DNA from: Clostridia bacterium | Lineage (GTDB): Bacteria > Bacillota > Clostridia > Oscillospirales > Acutalibacteraceae | DNA length: 41,794 bases | Assembly: GCA_017399405.1 (NCBI GenBank) | Contig: JAFQCT010000011.1 | Coordinates: 1 to 41,794 of the forward strand | Reading direction: 5' to 3' | Shown: positions 10,437 through 24,852 of the stretch, piece after piece | Layout of the letters: every line of letters begins with the position of its first letter | Numbering within the stretch: the first letter of the stretch is position 1 | The notes under the pieces: model-generated | The model's database searches: none | Seen by the model: only the letters and a program-made list of their open reading frames with translations | What the model was told of the DNA's origin: nothing | Position numbers and translations under genes: made by a program

Positions 10437-11777
10437 TTATCCCTTTATCATTCTAATTTTTTTGCGTTTTGCTTTTATACGATTACGGCGGATTATAAGG
10501 AAAATATATATAATCACAAGTAATACAAAAAGCACAAAAAGTATTTTGAAAACAGTGCTTGAAAGCACGGTTTTAATACCGTCAAGAATTACAAGAATAA
10601 TGCTTCGGCTTACATTTTCGCCTGCAACTAAATCAACAGTTGCAACAACATCTTCACCGTAAAGAATTTCAGCCTTGCCTATTACATCACCTTTTTTGAT
10701 AGGTGCTTTAACTACTTTCGGAGTTTCACTTTCAATAGGTCTTATTACAAGACTGCCCGATTTTGTACCCGTTGGCACAAGTGCTGACATCTCTTTTGCG
10801 GGGAGAAGTCGCAAATGGTCAACTTTCCAATTGTATTTAACATCAACAACCGTTACAACATCAGTTGTGTTTGTAACTTTTGTAAGCACAATATTATTGA
10901 ATGCCCATTCATAGATTTTTTTACTGTCAGTAAATGCAACATTTTCTTCAACATTATCACCGTCAATGTCATACTGTGGTGCGTTCATAACAATAAGCAT
11001 ATAGTTATAACCATTTTTTGATGCAGTTGAAATAACACAATGACCCGCAAGTGCAGTTGTACCTGTTTTTACACCTGAAATGTAGGGGCTGTAATAGTCC
11101 TTATATGCAGGATTCATCATCTTATTTGTGTTGTTAAGATATCTTGTATATGGATATTTTTCAGTTGGTGCAATTTCGTGTCGTAATGTGCTTGTAATCT
11201 CTTTGAATGTAGGATTTTCTAACGCATATTTTGTGATTTTGTAAAGGTCATAAGCAGTTGTAATGTTTCCACCCTCACCGTCAAGACCGTGAGCGTTGAT
11301 AAATGTTGTATTTTCACAACCAAGTTTTTTAACAAAGTCGTTCATCATTACAACAAAGTTTTCAATACTGCCACCGCCAATATAATCAGCAAGTATGTTT
11401 GCAGCATCAGCAGCAGACGGAATCATAAGCGCATATAAAAGTTCTTTTACTGTAAGAGTTTCACCTGCAAGAATACCAACGGTTGCCGCATTCTGCTCAT
11501 AAAGTCCGTTAAGGGACTCACGCTTACAAGTGAGAGGAGTGTTCAAATCTTCGCAATTTTCAAGTACAAGCATACAAGTAACAATTTTAGTTATTGATGC
11601 GGGTGCGGTTTTCTTATCTGCATTTTTATCAAAAATTACAGTTTCGCTGTCAGTGTTTATAAGCAACACAACATCAGCCTCTGTCTCTAACAAAGAGTTA
11701 AAAGAAGCAGACGAACTGATTGCGAAAACTCCCATTAAAATTGATATGCAAATTAAAACTGAAATCAGTTTTTTCAA
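10437..11777 (-). CDS. D-alanyl-D-alanine carboxypeptidase (DacF/PBP5 family)
   Basis: This is a low-molecular-weight penicillin-binding protein that trims the terminal D-Ala from peptidoglycan stem peptides. It has a signal peptide (residues 1-24), the nucleophile motif Ser61-x-x-Lys64 (SITK), the KTG motif at 237-239 and a C-terminal membrane helix near 415-432 with a strongly basic tail, so it is anchored outside the cell. The second motif reads SAAD (121-124) where the family usually has SGN or SAN, so the catalytic Asn is replaced by Ala. The start is a TTG at 11777 with GGGTGA upstream. Length is 446 residues, slightly long. Confidence 0.9.
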   Translation of the reverse strand: MKKLISVLICISILMGVFAISSSASFNSLLETEADVVLLINTDSETVIFDKNADKKTAPASITKIVTCMLVLENCEDLNTPLTCKRESLNGLYEQNAATVGILAGETLTVKELLYALMIPSAADAANILADYIGGGSIENFVVMMNDFVKKLGCENTTFINAHGLDGEGGNITTAYDLYKITKYALENPTFKEITSTLRHEIAPTEKYPYTRYLNNTNKMMNPAYKDYYSPYISGVKTGTTALAGHCVISTASKNGYNYMLIVMNAPQYDIDGDNVEENVAFTDSKKIYEWAFNNIVLTKVTNTTDVVTVVDVKYNWKVDHLRLLPAKEMSALVPTGTKSGSLVIRPIESETPKVVKAPIKKGDVIGKAEILYGEDVVATVDLVAGENVSRSIILVILDGIKTVLSSTVFKILFVLFVLLVIIYIFLIIRRNRIKAKRKKIRMIKG

Positions 11778-11873: not shown

Positions 11874-12563
11874 ATGATTTATATTACCGGAGATACTCAC
11901 GGAGACCGTAAGCGTCTTTCACGATTTAATTTGCGAAAATTAAACGAGGGCGACACATTGATTATATGTGGAGATTTCGGTTTTATGTGGAATGACACAA
12001 AACAAGAGCGTGAATTTTTAATGAATTTAGGCAAAAGAAAATATAATATCTGTTTTATTGACGGTACTCACGAAAAGTTCGATTTGCTGAATAATTACGA
12101 AATCAGCCAATGGAATGGTGGCAAGGTGCATAAGATTTACGGTAACCTGTATCACCTTATGCGTGGCCAGATTTTTGAGATTGAAGGTCAACGAATTTTC
12201 ACAATGGGTGGTGGCGAAAGTTCAGATGTTGACATCAGAAAAGATGTGAATGCTTGGTCAAAAGATGAAATTCCTACACAAGAAGAATTACTTGAAGGTG
12301 CTGAAAATCTTGAAGTGGCAGGTTATGATATTGATATGATTATCACTCACGAACCACCACTTAAAGTAAAGAGTTTCTTAAACCTTAACGATACCGCAAG
12401 TTATCGTGTGACTGCTCTTAATGCGTATTTTGAAGAACTTTCAGGCGGTTGCAAGTTCAGAAAATGGTATTTCGGCTCACTTCATATTGATAAATATATT
12501 TCAAAAACTCACCGTGCTGTGTTCAAAGACATTGTAAACAGCGAAACAGGTGAGAAGATATAA
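11874..12563 (+). CDS. Metallophosphoesterase (calcineurin-like)
   Basis: A 229-residue two-metal phosphoesterase. Motifs in order: GDTHGD (Asp7, His9), ICGDFG (Asp34), GTHE (64-67), ITHEPP and the late HxD-type segment GSLHIDKY. The third motif is normally GNHE; here Asn is replaced by Thr. The ATG follows AAAAGGA. It is a single-gene unit, closed by a perfect palindromic terminator, and the physiological substrate cannot be told. Confidence 0.85.
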   Translation: MIYITGDTHGDRKRLSRFNLRKLNEGDTLIICGDFGFMWNDTKQEREFLMNLGKRKYNICFIDGTHEKFDLLNNYEISQWNGGKVHKIYGNLYHLMRGQIFEIEGQRIFTMGGGESSDVDIRKDVNAWSKDEIPTQEELLEGAENLEVAGYDIDMIITHEPPLKVKSFLNLNDTASYRVTALNAYFEELSGGCKFRKWYFGSLHIDKYISKTHRAVFKDIVNSETGEKI

Positions 12564-18813: not shown

Positions 18814-20199
18814 TTATTTAGCAAATGTGCCTTTCCAATCATCAGGCTCGGTGTTGTAAAGCACATCAAGAAGCACATCAAGAATTTCTGCAATATTTTC
18901 AGTACCTTTTTTAAGTTTGAGTATTTTCTTAACTCGTTTGTTGAAAAGTGCCGAAAGTGCTTTATATTCTGCTGTGTCAGGTGTATATGGTTCGTTACCA
19001 TAATAAATATTTGTGATTGCCTCTAAAATAAAATCTTTAACAACTCTGTTTTTAATTGAATTGTCAACATATTTACTGATAGCAAAAAGTTTACCGAATG
19101 TGCCAAAAGTTGCTTTTTGCAGGAATTTGCCTAAAGGAACAAGTAATGGTTTTGCCTTGTAAATCTTTTCGGGAGTCATACTGAAAGATGTTGAAAGTTC
19201 GGCAAGTTTGTCAATGTCGTAAGCCATTGAATCAAAAATTGCATTTAAGAATTGCAAAAAGTTTGCTTTTGTATATTCGTCAACAGTTTTGCCTTGTAAA
19301 TCCCAATTGAAACTTTCAAGTTTAACGCTGTCAACAATTACTTCGGTATCTGTCATTTTGACTTTACGCATAACAGCAGGGTAACCGACTGCAGAAGCGG
19401 TGTTTATATCATAAAAATCATTACCTTTTGAGGTGGTCATTTTCGCAATATTCATCATATGAGTATGACCTGTAAAAATGAATTTTACACCATTATCTGC
19501 AAGAAATTCTGATGTTTTTTCGTAGTCCCCAAGCATATCTCGTTTACTGAAAAGTGGGTAAAGTGGGAATGGTGGCAAAACAGGGTGATGAGTAACCGCA
19601 AATATGTAGTCACCGTTTGCTTTTGCGTCATCGATTTGTTCTTTAATCCACTGGAGACAGTCATCATAGTAGCCGCAGAAGAACTCGTCACCGTCGTCGT
19701 TAAGACAAAGTAATCTGTATCCCTCTTGCAACTGTACGCAGTATGAATGGCTTGGTTTATGTAATGAGATTGCTTCACTTATACCAAAATCTTTATAGAT
19801 TTCTAAAAGTTCATCACGCTCGGTGCGAGTGGCGGTAAGGATTTCATCACCAACGCACTTTTCTGCCTTGCCCGTGCCGTTACCGTTTTCCATAAAGTAA
19901 TCGTGAGTACCTGTTGTAAGATAGACTTTTTTACCCGCATCTTTAAGTCGGTAAAGTTTTGGAAGTAAATCTTTATGACTTTCCATAGCACCGTTGCAGG
20001 TAACATCACCCGTAATGAGAACTATATTTGTATCGGTGTCTTCTATGATTTTGTCAAAGTGTGCGTCAATCATAGCACCTGTTTCTTTAAGGCATTTCTG
20101 GTCAGAAAGACAGATTTTTTCAAACGCTTTGCCTTCTGTACCAAGTTCTAGTGCATAGTGGTGCAAGTCAGTTATCTGATAAAACTTTAAGTCAGCCAT
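18814..20199 (-). CDS. Metallophosphoesterase (calcineurin-like)
   Basis: A 461-residue two-metal phosphoesterase, likely cytoplasmic. Motifs: ITDLHHY (Asp and His), ITGDVTCNG, GTHDY, THHPVLPP, and GHTHMM. The third motif is GTHD where GNHD is usual. About 190 C-terminal residues beyond the catalytic domain are helical and not recognised. It is the last gene of the train beginning at 24852, 2 bases after the transporter, and ends at a terminator. The link to a sugar transporter hints at a role in breakdown of an imported phosphorylated compound, but this is only a guess. Confidence 0.84.
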   Translation of the reverse strand: MADLKFYQITDLHHYALELGTEGKAFEKICLSDQKCLKETGAMIDAHFDKIIEDTDTNIVLITGDVTCNGAMESHKDLLPKLYRLKDAGKKVYLTTGTHDYFMENGNGTGKAEKCVGDEILTATRTERDELLEIYKDFGISEAISLHKPSHSYCVQLQEGYRLLCLNDDGDEFFCGYYDDCLQWIKEQIDDAKANGDYIFAVTHHPVLPPFPLYPLFSKRDMLGDYEKTSEFLADNGVKFIFTGHTHMMNIAKMTTSKGNDFYDINTASAVGYPAVMRKVKMTDTEVIVDSVKLESFNWDLQGKTVDEYTKANFLQFLNAIFDSMAYDIDKLAELSTSFSMTPEKIYKAKPLLVPLGKFLQKATFGTFGKLFAISKYVDNSIKNRVVKDFILEAITNIYYGNEPYTPDTAEYKALSALFNKRVKKILKLKKGTENIAEILDVLLDVLYNTEPDDWKGTFAK

Positions 20200-20201
20200 A
20201 A

Positions 20202-21599
20202 TTATTCTCCCGATGCTCTCTTTTCAATAATATAGTCGTGTACTTTATCTGCAAGTTCGCCATAAACTTTGAACTTTTTGCGGAACACAATCAATGATGC
20301 AAGGAAGAAGAGCATTGGCACGCCGAAACAGATAATGCCGATACCTGTTTTTGTTGTATCGTTAAGACCGATATTTGCAGTAATCTGTTCGTTGTAGTTC
20401 ATAAGTCCAAGACCGCCAAAAAGCACAATTGTTTGCATTGTGTATGCCATTTTCTGCAAAAAGCCTTTCATTGAGAAGGTGATACTTTCGTTTCTCTCAC
20501 CATTTTTGTATTCACCATAGTCAACAATATCTGCAAGGAAGATTGTCTGGGATACGAACATTGAAGAAACACCAACAGATGCAAGAATATAGCAAACATC
20601 CATAATCACAACATTGAGTTTAAGTATAGGCCCTGTTATGAGCATAAGTGCGTAACCTACGATTGCGGTTGAGAGTGAAATTGTGTAGGTTGTTCTCTTT
20701 GAAAACCATTTTGAAAGCACAGGTACAACAAGAAGTCCAAGCACAGAGCCAACTGTACCAATTGTCTGGAAAAGTGACTGTAATTTTGAGTTGCCTAAAG
20801 TATCTGTGAAATAGTAAACAGCAGTAGAACTTGTAAGATACCAACCTGCGTTTGAAAGCATTGCAAAAATAATAAATACTACAAGCTGGTCATTGTTTTT
20901 GATAACTGTGAAAATTTGTTTAAGGCTAAACTTTTTCTTTTCACCATAAACAACATTAGTTTCTTTTGTAAGAAGTACGCAGATAAGGGCAAAGAAAACG
21001 AGTGCTACACCGCATATTCCTGCCCAGCGTGAGAACCCGCTTGCACTGTACCCTTTTGCGTCAGTAATACCCGTTGAAAGAAGTGGGCAGATAATTGGTG
21101 TGAGAATTGAGATAATTCCTTGACCGATACCGGAGAATGTACGGGCAATAGTTGCAACAAGATTTCTTTCTTTTTCTTCACTTGTAAATGACGGAACCAT
21201 TGACCAATAAGGAATATCAGCCATTGTGTTTGTCATACCCCAAGCAATATACATAACGCCTATGTAAATGTAGAGAGGAAGTCCACTCATGCCGAAAGAT
21301 GTAAACAAAAGGAAAAGTACAACAGCGTTGCAAAGTGCACCAATTAAAATCCAAGGTCTGTATTTACCGTGTTTTGTGCGAGTATTATCAACGATTGTGC
21401 CCATCATCGGGTCGTTAATGCCATCCCATATACGAGCGAGAGGAGTAATTAAAAGCAAAAAGCCCTCTTGAAGCCCTAATACGCTTGAAAGGTAGTATGA
21501 AAGGTATGAATAGAACATACCGTAACTTAAATCAAGACCGATTGCACCTACACCGTAGCCAAGGGCGGTAGGAATAATAGATTTCTTTTTATTTGCCAT
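20202..21599 (-). CDS. GPH-type sugar:cation symporter (MFS)
   Basis: A 465-residue, 12-helix transporter of the glycoside-pentoside-hexuronide family. Signature segments are the early RIWDGINDPMMGTIVDNTRTKHGKYRPW and the later DIVDYGEYKNGERNESITFS (given as parts of longer conserved blocks). It would import a glycoside or uronide with a cation. The ATG at 21599 follows GAGG by 9 bases; an upstream TTG at 21617 was rejected. Its start overlaps the preceding 64-residue gene by 11 bases, so it is part of that operon. Confidence 0.88.
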   Translation of the reverse strand: MANKKKSIIPTALGYGVGAIGLDLSYGMFYSYLSYYLSSVLGLQEGFLLLITPLARIWDGINDPMMGTIVDNTRTKHGKYRPWILIGALCNAVVLFLLFTSFGMSGLPLYIYIGVMYIAWGMTNTMADIPYWSMVPSFTSEEKERNLVATIARTFSGIGQGIISILTPIICPLLSTGITDAKGYSASGFSRWAGICGVALVFFALICVLLTKETNVVYGEKKKFSLKQIFTVIKNNDQLVVFIIFAMLSNAGWYLTSSTAVYYFTDTLGNSKLQSLFQTIGTVGSVLGLLVVPVLSKWFSKRTTYTISLSTAIVGYALMLITGPILKLNVVIMDVCYILASVGVSSMFVSQTIFLADIVDYGEYKNGERNESITFSMKGFLQKMAYTMQTIVLFGGLGLMNYNEQITANIGLNDTTKTGIGIICFGVPMLFFLASLIVFRKKFKVYGELADKVHDYIIEKRASGE

Positions 21600-21783
21600 T
21601 GTTTCGCACCTCATCAATCACTAATTTTATTTCGTCTTCAATTTCGGGGAATTCCCGTGAGTAATTGCCTTGTTTTTCCTCATATTTTGAAAGGGCAAGG
21701 CTGAATACGCCAACTGTTGCAGTAACAAGGGGAGCAATTTTTGCAACCTTTATTGCAGTTTTTATAAGTTTTTTAGTATCCAT
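21589..21783 (-). CDS. Small protein of unknown function with one hydrophobic helix
   Basis: A 64-residue protein: basic amphipathic start (MDTKKLIKTAIKVAKI), a hydrophobic stretch (about residues 16-31), then an acidic tail. The ATG overlaps the stop codon of the MurE-ArgB fusion (TAATG), and its own end overlaps the transporter start, so it is translationally coupled on both sides. I do not recognise a family. Confidence 0.65.
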   Translation of the reverse strand: MDTKKLIKTAIKVAKIAPLVTATVGVFSLALSKYEEKQGNYSREFPEIEDEIKLVIDEVRNNGK

Positions 21784-24140
21784 TAGTCACGAGTCACCAC
21801 CGTTCCAACGGTTTTTGCACCGATAAATTCTGAAATTATGTTATAACGGACTCTACCGTTAAGAATTGCAACTTCTTTTACACCGTTTTCAATAAGATTT
21901 ATAATGTTACGGATTTTCGGTATCATTCCACCCTTGGCAAGACCACTATCGAGAAGCATTTTTGCTTTTTCTATTGTGATATGCTCCAAAGCAGTTTTTT
22001 CGTTCTGACTGTCAAGGAAAATACCATTTACATCTGTAATATAAACAAGATAGTCAGCCGAGAGTGCAAGGGCAATTTGTCCTGCTGCATCGTCTGCGTT
22101 AATGTTTACTGTGCCAAGAGACGAGCATCTGCCGACAGGGGAAATAACTACTGTGTAATCTTTTTCAAGAAGTGTATCAATAAGAGATGTATCAACTTTA
22201 CTGATGTCACCAACTCTGCCTAAAGATTTACCGTTAATGTATTTTGGGAGTGCAGTTAAAATGTTACCGTCAGTACCGCTAATGCCTACTGCCGAAATAT
22301 TACTTTGTGAGAAACGCTCGACAATTTTCTTGTTGACGCTACCTGAAAGCACCATTTCAACAATGTTCATTTCTTCGTCACCTGTAACGCGGTAACCCTC
22401 ATAAAACTCTGATTTAAGATTCATTTTGTCGAGTGTTTTGCTGATTTCTTTACCGCCACCGTGCACAACAACGATTTTAGCACCAACCATTGTAAGAAGT
22501 GCAATATCTTCAAGAAGATTTTTCATAAGTGTTTCATCATCAAGACAACTGCCACCAAGTTTTATTACAACTTTTTTGTTGTGAAGTTTGTGAAGTTGGG
22601 GGAGTATATCTTGCACACTTTTTATTTTCTCGTCGCTGTCAAGTCCGTTTTTTTTATCGTATTCTTTAAGTGCTTTTATTGTGTATTCAACATCAGTAGG
22701 ACAATCAATGTATTCGATGCCGCGTTTTTGTCTTGTTTCGTTGCCTTTACCTGTTATGAGAATAACACTATCTGCACCCATTTCATTGATTGCAGTAGAA
22801 ATTGCAACTCCGCGGTCGTCAATAATCTTATATTTACCGTTTTGAGATTCAACAAAAGATGCAACTTCTTTTGAAATCTTTTCAAGTGGCTCTTCGCCCG
22901 GGTCTTCTTCTGTAATATATGTCATATCGGCATACTGCCCGGCGATTTCACCTAAATCTTTACGACGAATAAGTGCTTTATTACCTGGGCAACCGAATAC
23001 AATAGCAACTTTTCTGCCGGGGTATTCTTGACGCACAGATTTGAAAAGATTTTCAAAACTCATTCTGTTGTGAGCATAGTCAACAATAGCGGTAATACGC
23101 TTGTCTGCATTTTCGTAAACTTCCATTCTACCGCTTGAGCGAGCTTTAAGAAGCCCTGTGTAAATGTATTGTTCAGGAATACCGAGTTTTACGCAAACCG
23201 CAATAGCACAAAGAGCGTTTTCCACATTGAAAAGACCGGGGATTGTAAGTGTAAAATCGCGGTTAAACTCTTTAGTTTTAACTGTAAATACTGTGTCAGA
23301 GCCATCTTTACGAATGTTGTAACCGTAAACATCTGCATTTGCATCTTTAGTGCTGAAAGTAATCACTTCAGGTGCGTTTTTTGATGCTTTTATAACATCT
23401 TCGCTACGGTCAGTATCAAGATTTACAACAGCAGTTTTGCATTGTGTAAAAATCTTCATTTTTGATTGGAAATAGTCTTCAAAATCAGGGTGTTCAATAG
23501 CACTAATGTGGTCAATACCGATATTGAGATAACAACCAATTGTGAAGTTTACACCGTCAGTTCTTCCGTATTTAAGTGCTTGTGAAGAGACCTCCATTGT
23601 AAAGTGTTCTATGTCGCTTTTAACTGCATTGTCAAAATGCTTGTGAAGGTCAAATGGCTCAGGAGTAGTTAAGTGACTTTCAATATTGATTATACCGTCA
23701 TAAGTGTCAATTGAAGATACAATTGCACTCTTTTTCTTGCCTAAAGCAGTTAAATATTCGTCTTCAATATATTTTATAAAGTACGCAGTTGTGGATTTGC
23801 CCTTTGTACCTGTAATACCAACAAGGTTAAGCTTATTCCACGCGTTATTATAGAAAAAGTTTGCAGAAAGATACATTGACTTTCTTATATCTGACACAAG
23901 AATACAAGGGGCATCTGTGTTATATTTCTTTTCTGAAACATAAGCAGTAGCACCGTTTTTTAATGCGTCAAGCAAAAACTGTTCTTTGAAATGTGCCCCT
24001 TTACAGAAAAACAGCGTATTTGCTTTTAAGTCCTGTGAGTTGTATGAAATAAATCCGACAGGGGAGTTTTCATCACATTCTTTGCTTGTGAGTATTGAGT
24101 TTTCCTTAAAAAGTTCAATGAAATCTTTAAGTATAAGCAT
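21783..24140 (-). CDS. murE-argB: MurE-like Mur ligase fused to N-acetylglutamate kinase (ArgB)
   Basis: One 785-residue frame carries two complete enzymes. Residues 1-490 are a MurE-type ligase: UDP-sugar-binding N-domain (FISYNSQDLKANTLFFCKG), ATP loop GITGTKGKSTT (108-118), TTP (158-160), MEVSSQAL, the candidate carbamylated Lys227 in YFQSKMKIF, and a C-domain where the usual DNPR/DNPA specificity loop reads EEDPG (411-415). Residues about 508-785 are ArgB: KLGG (527-530), HGGG (560-563), Arg584, Asn679 and Asp683 in NINADDAAG, and Lys742, so all expected catalytic positions are present. No frameshift or internal start site was seen at the junction. The ATG follows AAAGGAG. Individually the enzymes would add an amino acid to UDP-MurNAc-Ala-Glu and phosphorylate N-acetylglutamate. 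The combined role is unknown. Confidence 0.9.
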   Translation of the reverse strand: MLILKDFIELFKENSILTSKECDENSPVGFISYNSQDLKANTLFFCKGAHFKEQFLLDALKNGATAYVSEKKYNTDAPCILVSDIRKSMYLSANFFYNNAWNKLNLVGITGTKGKSTTAYFIKYIEDEYLTALGKKKSAIVSSIDTYDGIINIESHLTTPEPFDLHKHFDNAVKSDIEHFTMEVSSQALKYGRTDGVNFTIGCYLNIGIDHISAIEHPDFEDYFQSKMKIFTQCKTAVVNLDTDRSEDVIKASKNAPEVITFSTKDANADVYGYNIRKDGSDTVFTVKTKEFNRDFTLTIPGLFNVENALCAIAVCVKLGIPEQYIYTGLLKARSSGRMEVYENADKRITAIVDYAHNRMSFENLFKSVRQEYPGRKVAIVFGCPGNKALIRRKDLGEIAGQYADMTYITEEDPGEEPLEKISKEVASFVESQNGKYKIIDDRGVAISTAINEMGADSVILITGKGNETRQKRGIEYIDCPTDVEYTIKALKEYDKKNGLDSDEKIKSVQDILPQLHKLHNKKVVIKLGGSCLDDETLMKNLLEDIALLTMVGAKIVVVHGGGKEISKTLDKMNLKSEFYEGYRVTGDEEMNIVEMVLSGSVNKKIVERFSQSNISAVGISGTDGNILTALPKYINGKSLGRVGDISKVDTSLIDTLLEKDYTVVISPVGRCSSLGTVNINADDAAGQIALALSADYLVYITDVNGIFLDSQNEKTALEHITIEKAKMLLDSGLAKGGMIPKIRNIINLIENGVKEVAILNGRVRYNIISEFIGAKTVGTVVTRD

Positions 24141-24153
24141 TTTCTTGCTCCTT

Positions 24154-24852
24154 TTATTTTATATAATCTGCTAAACGAATTTTTTTCTTTTCAATATCGG
24201 TCAGGTCATAACCATGATATTTTAATGAGGACCATTCTTTTGCATTTTTTGTAAAACCATACCCCTCAAGACGCTTGTATCCGTGAAGATATTTATATTC
24301 ATCATGTGAAATATCAGTTCTGTTAATTATTTTGTCATCCTTGAACTGTGCAACAAAGGGTTGGTGATAAATGCCCTCATCATCACGCATATAACCGAGA
24401 ATATATATGTTTCCTCTTTCTTCATCGCATTCAATATACTGAAGAGATTGCTTTTCATTGTTTTCAAAAATTCTTTTTATCAGTTCAAAATTTTCAGTAT
24501 TATATATCGCTAAACAAGTCTGTACTCCAACTCGATTTTCAATATTATAAAACAACTCTCCCTCTTTTGAAAAACACATTCCGTGGTCTTGAGCCCCCTC
24601 TTCGCCATTAGGGACAAATCTGAACTTTTTCACAAGAGTTAAAGTATCAAGATTATATACAGCAATTCTATCCATAGTTGACTTAACAACTACAATATTC
24701 GAATTGGGTCGAAACATCGGCCTGTAGCCATATAAAATATCTTTTTTGAATCTTGCAAGCTCATTTCCATCTTTGTCATAGACATAGGTGGTCTGCCCTG
24801 TGCAACCGACCTTGAAATTTTCGTTTTCTGCATAGCCTACAAAGTTTCGCAT
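24154..24852 (-). CDS. Hypothetical protein with propeller-like repeats
   Basis: A 232-residue soluble protein without signal peptide. Recurrent strand patterns such as TTYVYDKDGNELARFKKD, RIAVYNLDTLTLVKKFRF and CLAIYNTENFELIKRIF look like blades of a beta-propeller (a value followed by a charged turn). I cannot name the family. It starts the downstream gene train and ends 13 bases before MurE-ArgB. A period-7 repeat occupies the gap to yfbR upstream. Confidence 0.65.
   Translation of the reverse strand: MRNFVGYAENENFKVGCTGQTTYVYDKDGNELARFKKDILYGYRPMFRPNSNIVVVKSTMDRIAVYNLDTLTLVKKFRFVPNGEEGAQDHGMCFSKEGELFYNIENRVGVQTCLAIYNTENFELIKRIFENNEKQSLQYIECDEERGNIYILGYMRDDEGIYHQPFVAQFKDDKIINRTDISHDEYKYLHGYKRLEGYGFTKNAKEWSSLKYHGYDLTDIEKKKIRLADYIK

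Follow-up and report, generated by a model that had tools for sequence, protein, structure and literature searches.

A MurE-type ligase fused to an N-acetylglutamate-kinase-type domain in Clostridia, possibly linking an accessory stem peptide ligase to ornithine supply

Introduction

MurE enzymes that add DAP to the peptidoglycan precursor are recognized by a DNPR motif, which is absent from the L-lysine ligase of Enterococcus faecalis and from the MurE of Collinsella, an organism with L-ornithine in its cell wall. MurE can also be part of a bifunctional chain, as in MurE-MurF (PRK11929, judged by the model name), but there the partner is a second Mur ligase and not an amino-acid kinase as in the protein described here. 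N-acetylglutamate (NAG) kinase, the product of argB, catalyzes the second step towards ornithine, several steps before ornithine itself. ArgB-like domains, too, are known in fusion with another catalytic domain, namely in NAGS and NAGS/K enzymes, and in NAGS it is an AAK domain holding the arginine site (available part of PMC3236213). The fusion described here differs from NAGS in that the partner is a Mur ligase instead of an acetyltransferase, that the kinase is C-terminal, and that the catalytic residues are kept in full-length copies.

As for the branches of the stem peptide, the available part of PMC4155827 describes a racD-aslA operon for D-Asp cross-bridges in Lactococcus and Enterococcus, and the available part of PMC11382707 names a Collinsella paper among four sources for the wall types of Eubacterium, which include A4beta.

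The fusion protein and its genome

The window, by which we mean the whole stretch of 41,794 nucleotides that was analysed, belongs to a genome of 1.96 Mb in 21 contigs that is 97.5% complete. On its minus strand, positions 21783-24140 form a single uninterrupted frame of 785 amino acids, in which a MurE-type ligase is followed by an ArgB-type kinase (Table 1). The first-pass annotation of this DNA had called a Mur ligase fused to a NAG kinase at exactly these positions, and Pfam and NCBIfam agree with it: Mur_ligase_M (residues 109-316), Mur_ligase_C (337-466) and AA_kinase (522-761) are all well above their cut-offs, the murE model TIGR01085 scores 307.2 (cut-off 257.3), which places the protein in the MurE subfamily, and the argB model TIGR00761 scores 226.0 bits (cut-off 151.3), which places it among the ArgB proteins as well. 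A stop or frameshift near residue 500, which that annotation had named as speaking against the fusion, was looked for in the 785-codon frame and is absent. As the same architecture is continuous in independent genomes of the genus (7 of 37) and of a second family, f14 (16 of 200), it is no assembly artefact; a chimera is thereby ruled out and the fusion is confirmed to be real. The combination had not been familiar to the first-pass annotation, and no description of a MurE-ArgB fusion was found in the open-licence full-text literature that was searched.

Table 1. Features of the window
Feature	Position	Strand	Basis
MurE-type Mur ligase half (MurE2), residues 1-500; EEDPGEEPL at the DNPR position	22641..24140	-	Pfam, NCBIfam, alignments to solved MurE enzymes, motif alignments
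ArgB / N-acetylglutamate-kinase-type half, residues 501-785; keeps the catalytic residues and lacks two residues of the arginine site	21783..22640	-	Pfam, NCBIfam, alignments
GPH (MelB-type) cation symporter; in the loci read in the genus, the next gene downstream of MurE2 in the fused and in most of the unfused relatives	20202..21617	-	Pfam, NCBIfam, locus comparison
Calcineurin-like metallophosphoesterase, third gene of the MurE2 trio	18814..20199	-	Pfam, locus comparison
232-aa ORF, 13 bp upstream of the fusion, between the fusion and a YfbR-like gene	24154..24852	-	ORF, locus comparison
Small metallophosphoesterase; in several genomes of the genus, a relative of this gene immediately precedes MurE2	11874..12563	+	locus comparison
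D-Ala-D-Ala carboxypeptidase (Peptidase_S11); a neighbour of the MurE2 cluster in several relatives	10437..11777	-	locus comparison

Separate murE and argB genes, for which a check had been proposed in the same annotation, are both present. The separate MurE (MurE1) adjoins a further Mur ligase, carries DNPR and passes one DAP-ligase model of NCBIfam (556, cut-off 373), and the separate ArgB sits in the arginine operon argG-argH-argC-argJ-argB-argD-argF. The fusion is thus an additional copy of both enzymes, and a replacement of a missing argB or murE is ruled out. As the arginine operon is full and its ArgJ is bifunctional, ornithine can be made in this genome.

The ligase half

The ligase half, MurE2, is a full-length MurE with the P-loop GTKGKST and the motifs TTPEP, EVSS and GKGxE, and in this respect it resembles the DNPR-less enzymes of E. 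faecalis and Collinsella, to which the window's MurE2 is 35% and 39% identical. In the alignment with E. coli MurE, the position of DNPR is occupied by EDPG in the window protein. DNPR is replaced in all 17 MurE2 rows of the motif alignment and kept in the MurE1 of the window's genome and of G161, the only two MurE1 proteins that were read. The "complete MurE-like ligase" of the first-pass annotation is therefore right as to completeness, but the DAP motif is missing and the canonical MurE is found elsewhere in the genome. In the comparison with NCBIfam, the DAP-ligase equivalogs among the 25 models shown are all below cut-off for the fusion, and the best score of the window protein is that for the L-lysine model PRK14022, which at 343.6 bits also remains below its cut-off of 536; for G362, a copy with a decayed kinase, the best model is a DAP ligase, likewise below cut-off. 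From the described DNPR-less enzymes, MurE2 differs in that it coexists with a DNPR-type MurE, bears a kinase domain, and scores under the curated L-lysine model.

In the phylogenetic tree, 13 of the 17 rows, among them every fused copy sampled, form a core MurE2 clade that groups with Collinsella aerofaciens MurE (support 98/94); the latter has a long branch and is annotated as DAP ligase in its record. The remaining four rows (G041, G045, G059 and G337) are outside this clade. The Vescimonas MurE in the same comparison has no DNPR either. Because of the missing DNPR, the grouping with Collinsella, the co-occurrence with FemAB and the neighbouring ATP-grasp gene in f14 (see below), it is quite probable that the ligase half is an accessory Lys/Orn-type MurE. 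The motifs fit L-lysine just as well as ornithine.

The kinase half

The catalytic and NAG-binding residues of NAG kinases as well as their arginine-site motif were taken from the available part of PMC3236213. K8, G11, G44, G64, R66, N158, N160, D162, D181 and K217 (E. coli numbering) are kept in all 34 full-length fused copies, which were selected by length and not by residues; 7 of 18 decayed copies are also included in that alignment. The window's copy is among the 34, so that the complete ArgB with its expected catalytic residues, as claimed in the first-pass annotation, stands for all residues tested. The fused kinase shares with arginine-sensitive ArgB proteins also the N-terminal helix region, and it is about 40% identical to the ArgB of its own genome, but it is fused to a ligase, it has two changes close to the substrate site that are discussed below, and its arginine site is altered. 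Arginine-sensitive NAG kinases combine a Tyr in the N-helix with the motif E-L-F-(T/S)-x-x-G-x-G-T, a combination that the fused copies do not have: the Tyr is lost in 34 of 34 and kept in 29 of 29 standalone ArgBs, the first Gly of GxGT is lost in 34 of 34 and kept in 28 of 29, and the Glu is present in 18 of 34 as compared to 29 of 29. The second Gly and the Thr are kept in all 34 fused copies.

It is therefore likely, as far as residues can tell, that the kinase half is active on N-acetylglutamate or a close N-acyl-glutamate, and it is predicted to be insensitive to arginine. An arginine-sensing domain is disfavoured by the two lost site residues, and the earlier idea that the kinase senses an amino acid for the ligase is thus not supported in the case of arginine, with another effector being possible. 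A LysZ-like carrier kinase was also considered and gained no support beyond the carrier scenario given last below, as the solved LysZ-type sequence differs in the loop at GGG and around R66.

Distribution

Among the 60 relatives that were searched, 37 genomes belong to the genus of the window, and 17 of these encode MurE2, 7 times fused and 10 times unfused. The six other fused copies are 86-96% identical to the window protein over the whole length, the unfused ones 62-70%. Among the matches listed from 394 genomes of the order, there are at least eight full-length fusions outside the genus, all in the one family f14, and the sampling of 200 f14 genomes gave MurE2 in 41 (E up to 1e-100), with 16 full fusions, two shortened kinase domains and 23 unfused copies. 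In the genus g159, the gene was found in 41 of 61 genomes (E up to 1e-100). No match covering more than 80% of the fusion was obtained from plasmid and phage collections at the limits used. Named records exist for six fused relatives, and five of these are Clostridia from the guts of herbivores (yak, roe deer, water deer, sheep and water buffalo). A free kinase gene that accompanies unfused MurE2 was also considered and is ruled out for the unfused loci searched, in which no such match was detected. Two ArgB-type matches elsewhere, G047:C50:57044-58129 and G272:C72:23260-24165, lie in open frames of 747 and 713 aa and possibly represent other ArgB fusions.

Association with bridge-type enzymes

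FemAB-type transferases were found above cut-off in 16 of 17 MurE2-positive and in 2 of 20 MurE2-negative genomes of the window's genus (Fisher p 2e-7, ignoring kinship). The exceptional MurE2-positive genome is 85% complete, and one further MurE2-negative genome has a FemAB below cut-off. Outside this genus and f14, the numbers are 23 of 36 and 9 of 44 (Fisher p 1e-4, again ignoring kinship); these 80 genomes were taken from the matches listed and comprise every one of the 36 that reached an E of up to 6.4e-84 and belong to neither g1 nor f14, together with 44 of the families f1, f13, f20, f21 and f26 whose best E was 2.5e-67 or higher. In G206, FemAB directly adjoins MurE2. The genome of the window has three FemAB genes in tandem (L212:5955-9738, one protein scanned), which suggests a bridge of several residues.

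In f14, none of the eight genomes searched has FemAB, and the fused loci that were read have an adjacent ATP-grasp gene in 8 of 8 and an amino-acid racemase gene in 7 of 8 cases. Both genes are also near MurE2 in G414 and G362, where the kinase is decayed, and in G323, where MurE2 is unfused. Altogether, the ATP-grasp gene was detected in 14 of 35 genomes searched and in none of 14 searched genomes of the window's genus, and the loci read in that genus have neither racemase nor ATP-grasp near MurE2. In G337 and G041, neither FemAB nor ATP-grasp was found. In the plasmid collection, the ATP-grasp protein is matched best by a protein of Subdoligranulum variabile (44%); next come three lactobacillar proteins of 35-39% identity, two of which are annotated as carboxylate-amine ligase, one of these two beside an amino-acid racemase. 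With its racemase beside an ATP-grasp enzyme, the f14 arrangement resembles the RacD-AslA module (available part of PMC4155827), a likeness drawn from these lactobacillar proteins and from the racemase neighbour. It differs from this module in that the pair adjoins an accessory MurE2, and the window's genus has no ATP-grasp in the 14 genomes searched and mostly FemAB. The racemase, of which one was scored, passes the cysteate-racemase equivalog (215.3, cut-off 190) in addition to the general amino-acid racemase model, which is why D-Asp is not assured as its product.

The ATP-grasp and racemase pair also occurs in Subdoligranulum variabile (L206:8001-9956), with no MurE2 match in the 17 kb that were read. 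An AsnB-type amidotransferase is encoded beside MurE2 in G281 (L110:7455-9308), and asnB is found beside the Collinsella MurE (L207:3892-5772); these neighbours hint at amidated bridge or stem residues.

Possible functions of the fusion

The best explanation, which we hold tentatively, is an accessory Lys/Orn-type MurE for branched stems that is fused to an arginine-insensitive NAG kinase supplying ornithine. The N-terminal half would add a diamino acid that lacks the second carboxylate found in DAP, either L-ornithine or L-lysine, to UDP-MurNAc-L-Ala-D-Glu, and the product would receive a side branch, in the window's genus by FemAB-type transferases and in f14 by the D-aspartate-ligase-like ATP-grasp enzyme encoded beside the amino-acid racemase. 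A normal ArgB would be throttled by arginine, whereas the C-terminal half, as a NAG kinase that does not respond to arginine, could secure a supply of N-acetylglutamyl phosphate, and with it of ornithine, for the ligase. Through the fusion, the amount and the place of this supply would be tied to the amount of ligase. That ornithine is what links the two halves is an assumption to be made with reserve. As NAG kinase acts several steps before ornithine, its product cannot be channelled directly to the ligase, and the kinase can only raise or redirect the flux. The ornithine-type third residue that had been suggested in the first-pass annotation is thus in line with the missing DNPR, the Collinsella grouping, the co-occurring bridge-type enzymes and a kinase that has kept its catalytic residues and lost two arginine-site residues, but the kinase cannot hand ornithine over to the ligase.

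Several observations do not fit this explanation well. The kinase is an accessory and dispensable part, as it is absent from 10 of 17 MurE2-positive genomes of the genus and from G323, in which MurE2, racemase and ATP-grasp are retained, and as the catalytic core is lost in 18 of 30 g159 copies. The arginine motif has not disappeared entirely (the second Gly and the Thr always remain, the Glu does so in about half of the copies), the Collinsella MurE with its long branch is annotated as DAP ligase, and four MurE2 rows are outside the core clade. In addition, FemAB occurs in 9 of 44 MurE2-negative genomes, G337 and G041 lack both branch-forming enzymes, the best model of G362 is a DAP ligase (under cut-off), and there is a second ArgB in G414 and G362.

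If the explanation is true, gut Clostridia that encode a DAP-type murE have a further route to the stem peptide, of the Lys/Orn type and equipped with branch-forming enzymes, and the muropeptides shed by them would change. DAP muropeptides are NOD1 ligands. It would also mean that a wall ligase is directly and physically linked to the control step of ornithine synthesis.

Alternatively, the kinase-type domain may serve mainly as a regulatory or oligomerizing module of the ligase, with catalysis left over or secondary. We regard this as rather unlikely, though there is a precedent in the AAK domain of NAGS, with its arginine site beside the acetyltransferase (available part of PMC3236213), and though the decay in g159 can be read in its favour. 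Of the 30 g159 copies read, 11 have a full kinase, one is cut by a contig end inside the kinase, and 18 are without catalytic core; these decayed copies, one of which starts at a contig edge, come in three lengths of about 718, 665 and 652 residues, and in all three size classes the N-helix and the C-terminal end are kept. Their kinase remnants have dN/dS values of 0.07-0.88 in pairs under the saturation limit, i.e. below 1 in all these pairs and 0.07-0.10 in four close pairs, which suggests some non-catalytic use. However, most decayed pairs are relaxed relative to their own ligase half, with equally low values in the closest pairs, and such a relaxation is expected if catalysis was the main job. 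The full-length halves are constrained about as strongly as each other: dN/dS is 0.03-0.08 for both halves in six copies of the window's genus (15 pairs, one without ligase value, many with dS >1), and in the comparison that includes the decayed copies, pairs under the saturation limit gave 0.07-0.40 (ligase half) and, for full-length copies, 0.05-0.52 (kinase half). That all full-length copies keep every tested catalytic and NAG-binding residue, and have lost Tyr and the first Gly at the effector site, also argues against a mere regulatory role. G362 and G414, in which the fused kinase is decayed (L200, L201), have a second ArgB-type gene; a takeover by this extra ArgB was dropped as a loose link, since both genes seem by eye to be in arginine gene clusters.

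A less probable alternative is that MurE2 adds L-lysine and that the kinase acts on another N-acyl amino acid of the cassette, such as an N-acylated aspartate or glutamate that belongs to the bridge, to give an acyl phosphate for a later step. Changes beside the substrate site could indicate this, as Leu65 is Tyr in 34 of 34 fused copies (Leu in 29 of 29 ArgBs) and the Pro after GGG, present in 29 of 29 ArgBs, is replaced by Lys, Arg or Gln in 33 of 34 fused copies, and some MurE2 neighbours handle acidic amino acids (racemase, ATP-grasp, AsnB-type amidotransferase). But position 65 is His in the solved NAG kinase of T. maritima and Met in that of P. aeruginosa, which is why Leu65 to Tyr was dropped as proof of a new substrate, and the fusion is kept in the window's genus despite the lack of ATP-grasp in 14 genomes and of a racemase near MurE2 in the loci read.

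It is also improbable, somewhat more so, that ordinary domain shuffling joined the genes by chance and that the join is tolerated without functional linkage. The phylum survey of 398 genomes (E up to 1e-90), in which fusions with remote halves could be missed, gave the fusion only in the two known lineages, and many relatives have either no kinase or a decayed one, as would fit such an accident. Yet the fusion persists over several genera with dN/dS well below 1, and the kinase divergence is common to the fused copies. Moreover, in an unrooted tree that carries a long-branch warning, a branch with 100/99 support separates the kinase halves of both lineages (15 copies) from 29 ArgBs. The ligase halves do not group by fusion in their tree, where the fused label needs four changes; this may reflect a single old fusion with repeated losses or the passing of the kinase from one MurE2 gene to another.

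Finally, it is very improbable that the halves act sequentially on one nucleotide-linked substrate, in that MurE2 would load an acidic amino acid onto UDP-MurNAc-L-Ala-D-Glu by a gamma-glutamyl amide and the kinase would phosphorylate the bound side-chain carboxylate, so that the diamino acid would be finished on the wall precursor as an amino-group carrier, comparable to LysW in lysine and ornithine synthesis.

Other genes of the window

The 232-aa ORF between the fusion and the YfbR-like gene has no match in Pfam or NCBIfam, and it is missing in a 96%-identical relative (L051). Behind MurE2, the symporter and the metallophosphoesterase (18814-21617) form an arrangement that recurs in fused as well as unfused relatives and in some of them includes a second metallophosphoesterase or a small gene in between.
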